This document shows, one piece after another, positions 30,587-31,327 of a stretch of 64,000 bases of DNA. Within the stretch, counting starts at the first letter, position 1; every line of letters starts with the position of its first letter. The notes beneath the pieces are model-generated. The model did not search any database, had not been told where the DNA came from, and saw only the letters and a list, made by a program, of their open reading frames with translations. Where the stretch lies: the NCBI RefSeq assembly GCF_900313065.1, contig NZ_OMPU01000011.1, positions 1 to 64,000 on the forward strand, written 5' to 3'. The position numbers and the translations under genes are program-made. The stretch comes from Kiloniella sp. EL199 (GTDB lineage Bacteria; Pseudomonadota; Alphaproteobacteria; Kiloniellales; Kiloniellaceae).

Positions 30587-31234
30587 ATGCCTGACTTTTC
30601 AAAAGAGCAAAAACTTGATCAAGAACTCGGTATTAACAACGCCATAATTGCCGGTGTTGACGAAGTCGGACGTGGACCATGGGCTGGACCAGTTGTTGCC
30701 GGTGCCGCATGGCTGGATCGCGAAAAATTACCACAAGATTTAATCGCAAAACTCGACGATTCCAAAAAGCTTTCAGCAAGAAAGCGGGAAGATATAAACG
30801 ATCAGCTTTATGATTTACATCAGCAGGGAATCATCAACTTGGCTTTAGGCGAAGCCAGTTGCGAAGAAATCGACAAGTTGAACATCCTTCAAGCATCCAT
30901 GATGGCAATGCAAAGGGCTGTATCGAACCTGTCTCTAACGCCACAAGCTATTTTGGTTGACGGTAACAAGATCCCCAAACTGCCCTGCCCTGCAAAGGCT
31001 GTGATCAAAGGAGACAGCATCAGCTTGTCCATCGCAGCTGCATCTGTCATCGCAAAGGTGAATCGGGATCATCAGATGTTTGAACTATCGATTCAATATC
31101 CGGGTTACGGCTGGGAAAAAAATCAGGGCTATGGAACCGCTCAACACAGGGCCGCACTACTAGATCTTGGGGTTACTCCGGCACACCGCCGCACATTTCG
31201 TCCAATAAGAGAGCGACTCGAGCTAAACGACTGA
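30587..31234 (+). CDS. rnhB: Ribonuclease HII
   Basis: A 215-residue enzyme that cuts RNA in RNA-DNA hybrids and at single ribonucleotides in DNA. The N-terminal IAGVDEVGRGPWAGPVVAGA holds the catalytic Asp-Glu pair. ILVDGNKIPKLPC and SLSIAAASVIAKVNRDH carry the other acidic residues and the G-K/S loop. GYGWEKNQGYGTAQHRAAL is the C-terminal signature. It lies 12 bp after the antiporter gene, with a weak ribosome site. The last codons already contain the first of the GANTC sites that run into the ccrM leader. The rnhB-ccrM neighbourhood is common in alphaproteobacteria. Confidence 0.96.
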   Translation: MPDFSKEQKLDQELGINNAIIAGVDEVGRGPWAGPVVAGAAWLDREKLPQDLIAKLDDSKKLSARKREDINDQLYDLHQQGIINLALGEASCEEIDKLNILQASMMAMQRAVSNLSLTPQAILVDGNKIPKLPCPAKAVIKGDSISLSIAAASVIAKVNRDHQMFELSIQYPGYGWEKNQGYGTAQHRAALLDLGVTPAHRRTFRPIRERLELND

Positions 31235-31327
31235 CTCCAATGACTCTTTACTTGACTCTTCACGTAAAAAATACTTGACCGCGACTCCACAGTGACTCAA
31301 GATAGGGGACTCGAGTCAAGAGGAGTC
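31215..31327 (+). promoter_or_regulatory. Dense GANTC cluster in front of ccrM
   Basis: Nine CcrM target sites start at 31215, 31233, 31242, 31254, 31283, 31294, 31308, 31313 and 31323. All are GACTC or GAGTC. Chance expectation in 113 bp is below one. The last site overlaps the ccrM ribosome site (AGAGGAG, 31319-31325). No CtrA-type TTAA-N7-TTAA site is visible here. This suggests that ccrM expression responds to the methylation state of its own promoter and leader. Confidence 0.85.

Follow-up and report, generated by a model that had tools for sequence, protein, structure and literature searches.

The ccrM gene of Kiloniella sp. EL199 is preceded by nine copies of GANTC, the sequence that its product recognizes, and this raises the question of what so many sites do in front of the gene for their own enzyme. 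The window, meaning the whole stretch of DNA that was analyzed, is 64 kb long (positions 1 to 64,000 of contig NZ_OMPU01000011.1). The product of ccrM has an N6_N4_Mtase domain and a C-terminal RAMA domain and is orthologous to alphaproteobacterial CcrM, the orphan GANTC adenine methyltransferase, a match to which is present in 56 of 58 related genomes. In its own organism, CcrM would be expected to methylate GANTC at the array sites. To our knowledge, little has been established on CcrM timing in bacteria other than Caulobacter and the rhizobia. The features of the locus are as follows, with minus numbers counted from the predicted transcription start.

30587–31234, forward strand: rnhB (ribonuclease HII), the upstream neighbor, whose 3' end contains site 1 and whose stop overlaps site 2 (open reading frame; PF01351, E=1.6e-45)
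31215–31327, no strand: nine-site GANTC array, with all nine sites present in nine of nine genus members
31215–31219, no strand: site 1, GACTC, at ~-95, within rnhB and specific to the genus (pattern match and genus alignment)
31233–31237, no strand: site 2, GACTC, at ~-77, overlapping the rnhB stop codon (pattern match and genus alignment)
31242–31246, no strand: site 3, GACTC, at ~-68 (pattern match and genus alignment)
31254–31258, no strand: site 4, GACTC, at ~-56 (genus alignment and relatives)
31266–31271, forward strand: A-tract directly 5' of the -35 box, possibly an UP-like element (sequence; the named set of loci is also A-rich there)
31275–31280, forward strand: predicted -35 element, TTGACC (TTGAC at the same register class-wide)
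31283–31287, no strand: site 5, GACTC, in the -35/-10 spacer, -27 to -23 (genus and class comparison)
31294–31298, no strand: site 6, GACTC, -16 to -12, whose final C also opens the -10 hexamer (24-bp register)
31298–31303, forward strand: predicted -10 element, CAAGAT, after a 17-bp spacer, with a predicted start at ~31310 (conservation of A-11 and T-7)
31308–31312, no strand: site 7, GACTC, spanning the predicted start, specific to the genus and forming GACTCGAGTC with site 8
31313–31317, no strand: site 8, GAGTC, in the predicted leader (pattern match and genus alignment)
31323–31327, no strand: site 9, GAGTC, overlapping the Shine-Dalgarno sequence AGGAG at 31321–31325 (sequence and genus alignment)
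31335–32405, forward strand: ccrM, N6-adenine methyltransferase with a RAMA domain and a GTG start (open reading frame; PF01555, E=2.2e-67; PF18755, E=4.3e-16)

The array and its conservation in the genus

The 113-bp stretch holds nine exact matches to GANTC, seven of them GACTC and two GAGTC, running from the end of rnhB to the ccrM ribosome site just as the original prediction had described them. The prediction had also put the number expected by chance below one. It is 0.21 per 113 bp when calculated from the site density across the window (Poisson P ~2e-12) and 0.44 from shuffled composition (P ~1e-9). No other 113-bp stretch of the window is as dense, the runner-up elsewhere having three sites, and among patterns of the NNxNN form none other than GANTC is raised within the array. 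Over the whole window GANTC is in fact rarer than expected, with 131 sites compared to 261 in shuffles, a depletion of the kind reported for CcrM-bearing genomes (PMC3973325). The center base is also unusual, since 102 of the 122 window sites outside the array are GAATC or GATTC and 20 are G/C-centered, compared to nine of nine with G or C within it.

A genome-wide scan for other dense clusters, suggested with the original prediction, was run with a triple-site pattern over the 4.18-Mb genome and found none denser than the array at ccrM. The next densest, at C3:793-923, has seven GAATC or GATTC sites in ~131 bp and continues into the beginning of an open reading frame, judged by eye to be a candidate GNAT acetyltransferase. 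A further cluster, at C2:229984-230076, has five GANTC in 93 bp at a spacing of about 25 bp (starts 12, 26, 25, and 25 bp apart).

A lack of conservation in close relatives had been named beforehand as one result that would speak against the prediction. Instead, the nine species of the genus (CcrM identity 89–100%) carry every array site in the same place and with the same center base. None of the 45 columns within the sites varies, compared to 20 of 68 elsewhere in the array (Fisher p = 1e-5), and 11 of 13 GANTC sites inside genes at the same loci are lost in at least one of the nine species.

The core promoter and its register across the class

Within the array, the sequence before ccrM reads as a sigma70-type promoter, TTGACC-17 bp-CAAGAT, with one GANTC in the spacer and another joined to the -10 element on its upstream side. 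The two elements are spaced within the 16–18 bp range, with A at -11 and T at -7, and the methylatable adenines of the fused site would fall at -15 (top strand) and -13 (bottom strand). A generic consensus promoter scan found no site at ccrM and left the -10 box unscored because the first -10 base (-12) is C, so recognition of the promoter needed alignment over relatives. The original prediction was right to place the sites in the ccrM promoter but missed the sigma70-type core, the site fused to its -10 element, and the spread of both across the class.

Sites 7 to 9 lie at or downstream of the predicted start. Since they are complementary and site 9 overlaps the Shine-Dalgarno sequence, it could be supposed that GACTC and GAGTC pair in the 5' leader RNA and mask the ribosome site. 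However, the predicted fold of -9.1 kcal/mol is weaker than that of shuffles (z = 0.90), and a leader hairpin would leave the sites 5' of the start unexplained. The hairpin was rejected since its fold is no better than that of shuffles, and regulation through leader structure is extremely improbable.

Relatives in the order and family keep a subset of the sites, laid out as GASTC-(2-5)-GACTC-TTGAC-(3)-GASTC-(6)-GACTC-AGGAT. For one relative in the order, G038, the sequence before ccrM matches the corresponding region of Fodinicurvata fenggangensis (L097), in keeping with a position of the window within or close to the Kiloniellales. Because retention in other genera and families is partial, the core is defined by what these relatives keep. 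Upstream counterparts of site 4 are common among them, at a variable distance and often abutting the -35 box. The genus has added further invariant sites both upstream and downstream of the core.

The register of the core was followed in three sets of ccrM upstream regions. These were a close set of 58 related genomes, a class sample of 124 genomes (87 of them with ccrM, each giving one upstream region, mostly one per family), and a named set of 80 named loci picked by similarity to the Kiloniella CcrM, on which the distribution by named order is based. In 126 of 135 matches across the three sets, the segment that opens with TTGAC and closes with the second GANTC spans 24 bp. Among the 87 class-sample regions, 35 have a GANTC whose first base lies 19 bp past the first base of TTGAC, compared to about one region at most other distances, and a second peak places the spacer GANTC at 6–10 bp. 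In counts that represent sequences related by descent and not independent events (flanking and spacer bases differ widely), the base next to TTGAC-N14-GANTC at ccrM (-11) is A in 134 of 134 and the base at -7 is T in 133 of 134. Neither base was part of the search pattern, and they are the two most constrained bases of the sigma70 -10 box. The same pattern occurs eight times in the non-ccrM DNA examined, with both A-11 and T-7 in one of the eight.

The fuller pattern TTGAC-N3-GANTC-N6-GANTC is close to private to ccrM. It occurs 44 times in the 58 related genomes, 38 of them just 5' of ccrM, and 18 times in the 124 class genomes, 15 of them at ccrM; a reversed control pattern has zero occurrences in the 58. 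This means that the three-part core is found about once per genome and nearly always at ccrM. Five of the six non-ccrM occurrences in the relatives are one conserved copy within a single genus. This copy, TTGACCGGGAGTCCAAGCAGAGTC, stands away from ccrM in G009, G013, G015, G017, and G022 (genus g2 of the same family), where it could belong to a different promoter or to coding sequence.

The core is carried by part of the class only (35 strict and four loose cases among the 87 regions), and its spread over many alphaproteobacterial families suggests that it is ancient. GANTC density in the 200 bp before ccrM is 10–17 times that in the remainder of the same loci. Most lineages have two to five sites before ccrM. 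At least six in 113 bp are found in 9 of the 87 class-sample regions and 5 of the 80 named-set regions, with nine only in the genus studied here. Taken with the scarcity of GANTC in the window and Poisson probabilities of ~1e-9 to 1e-12, the density, genus invariance, and class-wide register rule out chance or base composition, for which the probability left is negligible.

Other lineages have variants of their own. Micavibrio and related organisms (L078, L109, and L114) carry independent arrays of eight to nine GANTC per 200 bp on the same core, with an extra GATTC two bases past the site fused to the -10 element. In the Rhodobacterales (e.g., L052, L053, L066, and L111), a third GANTC, mostly GATTC, lies about 15 bp 5' of the -35 element and is followed by an A-rich stretch, and the typical layout is a three-site ccrM promoter.

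Nine targets within 113 bp could also be thought to sequester CcrM at its own gene, by titration or as a roadblock, as the original prediction had offered for consideration. No support for this was found. Nine sites are few against the thousands in the genome (131 in the window alone), most lineages have only two to five, and sequestration would leave the exact register to the -35 and -10 elements unexplained, making it very improbable.

How the sites may be read

In Caulobacter, ccrM is activated by CtrA (PMC3667746, PMC2877005). In the genus studied here, the CtrA box TTAA-N7-TTAAC is absent near the ccrM promoter, where the best match has two to three mismatches, in agreement with the original prediction; CtrA control of this promoter was rejected for the genus. 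When no more than one mismatch is allowed, the class sample has a box in 1 of 40 regions with the core and in 11 of 47 regions without it (shuffles expect 0.4 and 1.7). Since the boxes sit mostly in core-less regions, self-methylation and CtrA wiring look like alternatives. Brilli et al. described rhizobial ccrM as usually having CtrA sites and counted promoter GANTC, drawing no conclusion on control (PMC2877005).

The center bases of the nine sites had led to the proposal of a regulator that recognizes TGACTC, and such a protein would bind regardless of methylation. The restriction to G or C holds throughout the genus and is common in the order. Also, the site fused to the -10 element is C-centered in 108 of 134 cases and G-centered in none (it is never GAGTC), with a T before it in 114 of 134. 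However, the Rhodobacterales and others carry GAATC or GATTC at the same positions, and in the named set, which is mostly Rhodobacterales, the spacer site is A/T-centered in 52 of 58, compared to G/C-centered in the order studied here. Because only the center drifts and G, A, T, and C stay fixed, the constraint appears to be the CcrM recognition sequence GANTC and not TGACTC. A TGACTC-only regulator was rejected on this drift among orders, and a TGACTC protein of any kind is improbable. The lack of G at the center of the -10 site does suggest that something also reads its orientation, and the candidates are sigma itself, GcrA, or a need for a certain DNA shape.

Activation through GcrA is the most probable of the rival explanations. 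GcrA works as a cofactor of sigma70 and has a preference for methylated GANTC, binding both the methylated site and the sigma2 domain and stimulating promoter opening (PMC7403470, PMC3667746). At ccrM, a methylated spacer GANTC would recruit GcrA with sigma70 RNA polymerase, and CcrM would thereby activate its own gene in a positive feedback. There are parallels at the Caulobacter ftsZ and mipZ promoters, which are activated by methylation and depend on CGACTC (PMC3708114), and, for the hemimethylated form, at ctrA P1. Site 5 lies between the -35 and -10 elements, as at GcrA-dependent promoters, and its position fits those of podJ P2 (-24) and ctrA P1 (-28/-29), which were drawn from reviews and PMC4287350. 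The genome itself encodes an intact GcrA (L046:1501-2208). This protein is longer than the 173-aa Caulobacter one, with a linker rich in Ala, Pro, and Lys between its DNA-binding and sigma-interacting ends.

GcrA and the core go together in this genome but not across the class. In 17 of the 87 ccrM-bearing class genomes, no GcrA was found above the Pfam cut-off, and a repeated search at E<=10 yielded no convincing candidate. Nevertheless, the site fused to the -10 element is retained in 12 of the 17, compared to 26 of the 70 genomes with GcrA, and 10 of the 12 also have the spacer site. They include G111, a single-contig genome called 100% complete. The gene may have been missed in the assemblies of GcrA-negative genomes, or GcrA may have diverged past detection in them. 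Since the core is retained without detectable GcrA, GcrA seems unneeded for core maintenance and is probably not its universal or sole reader; as the only reader it was rejected. Activation through GcrA at this promoter is therefore unlikely, if still worth considering. Genomes with ccrM and without detectable GcrA, such as G111, G120, G152, G153, G172, and G174, are natural tests of GcrA-independent GANTC reading.

A response to methylation state is the reading that best suits the array, judging from its sequence. We favor, with moderate confidence, a methylation-sensing promoter by which CcrM regulates its own synthesis, probably low when fully methylated and active when hemimethylated. CcrM would methylate the promoter GANTC sites, and adenine methylation at ~-26/-24 and -15/-13 would alter the recognition or opening of the promoter by RNA polymerase. 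The effect would be direct, possibly exerted jointly with GcrA where GcrA exists. The simplest alternative to GcrA would be that RNA polymerase itself reads the sites, for which there are precedents in CfrBI, AhdI, and LlaDII (PMC12707154). Passage of the replication fork would leave the sites hemimethylated and the promoter more active. As CcrM builds up and remethylates the genome, the core sites would become fully methylated and initiation would be lowered, so that ccrM is made when its own locus replicates and is turned off once remethylated. The extra sites of the genus could delay full shut-off and steepen the response because more sites need remethylation. This negative sign, in which full methylation lowers and hemimethylation raises initiation, is the most likely one. 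The opposite sign, with activation dependent on GcrA as at Caulobacter ftsZ and mipZ (PMC3708114), may hold instead.

A wider proposal is tentative, and perhaps a little more apt to be wrong than right. In much of the Alphaproteobacteria, a CcrM site would replace the upstream edge of the -10 element, and RNA polymerase would read its methylation without GcrA or CtrA. This replication-coupled methylation thermostat may predate CtrA control and have been replaced by it in some lineages, with the nine-site array as an amplified version.

Relation to known systems

With such a promoter, ccrM is probably responsive to whether CcrM has already acted. Being conserved and specific to ccrM, the promoter offers a way to test whether RNA polymerase, alone or together with GcrA, senses N6-methyladenine within the -10 region. 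The pattern TTGAC-N14-GANTCA-N3-T could serve as a sequence rule for recognizing methylation-wired ccrM genes, two largely exclusive wirings of the gene (CtrA or self-methylation) come into view, and the nine-site genus would be a natural dose-response case. In the literature searched, which covered part of the primary work on ccrM and GcrA, no earlier description was found of the class-wide fusion to the -10 box or of the nine-site array.

Self-regulation by promoter methylation is already known. In CfrBI, RNA polymerase is blocked at the promoter of the methylase gene once the site there is methylated, and AhdI and LlaDII control their methylase genes in a similar way (PMC12707154). The likeness is that the promoter of a methylase gene holds the enzyme's own site, here within the core promoter as in those cases. 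In those systems methylation lowers transcription of the methylase, whereas for ccrM the response is inferred from sequence. They also differ in being restriction-modification systems, with a single site or a small number of them, while ccrM encodes an orphan cell-cycle methylase and has several sites, one of them fused to the -10 element, in a layout kept across a bacterial class.

Closer to home, a passage in PMC3973325 (citing Stephens et al. 1995) states that Caulobacter ccrM is "most probably" regulated by its own methylation. The gene is the same, and self-regulation through GANTC methylation is what that passage proposes for Caulobacter crescentus. The difference is that ccrM is activated there by CtrA, whereas the genus studied here has no CtrA box and carries its sites within the core promoter. 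With the GcrA/CcrM sigma70 promoters (ctrA P1, podJ P2, ftsZ, and mipZ), the ccrM core shares a GANTC between the -35 and -10 elements and, with ftsZ and mipZ, the GACTC orientation. It differs in having at least two sites in fixed register, one of them fused to the -10 element, in being almost private to ccrM, and in being kept without detectable GcrA. Finally, in synthetic memory circuits built in E. coli, engineered promoters put the control region of CcrM under methylation by the enzyme itself and so close a feedback loop (PMC5458116), but with a designed zinc-finger repressor as the reader and with positive feedback, whereas the ccrM promoter is a natural one.
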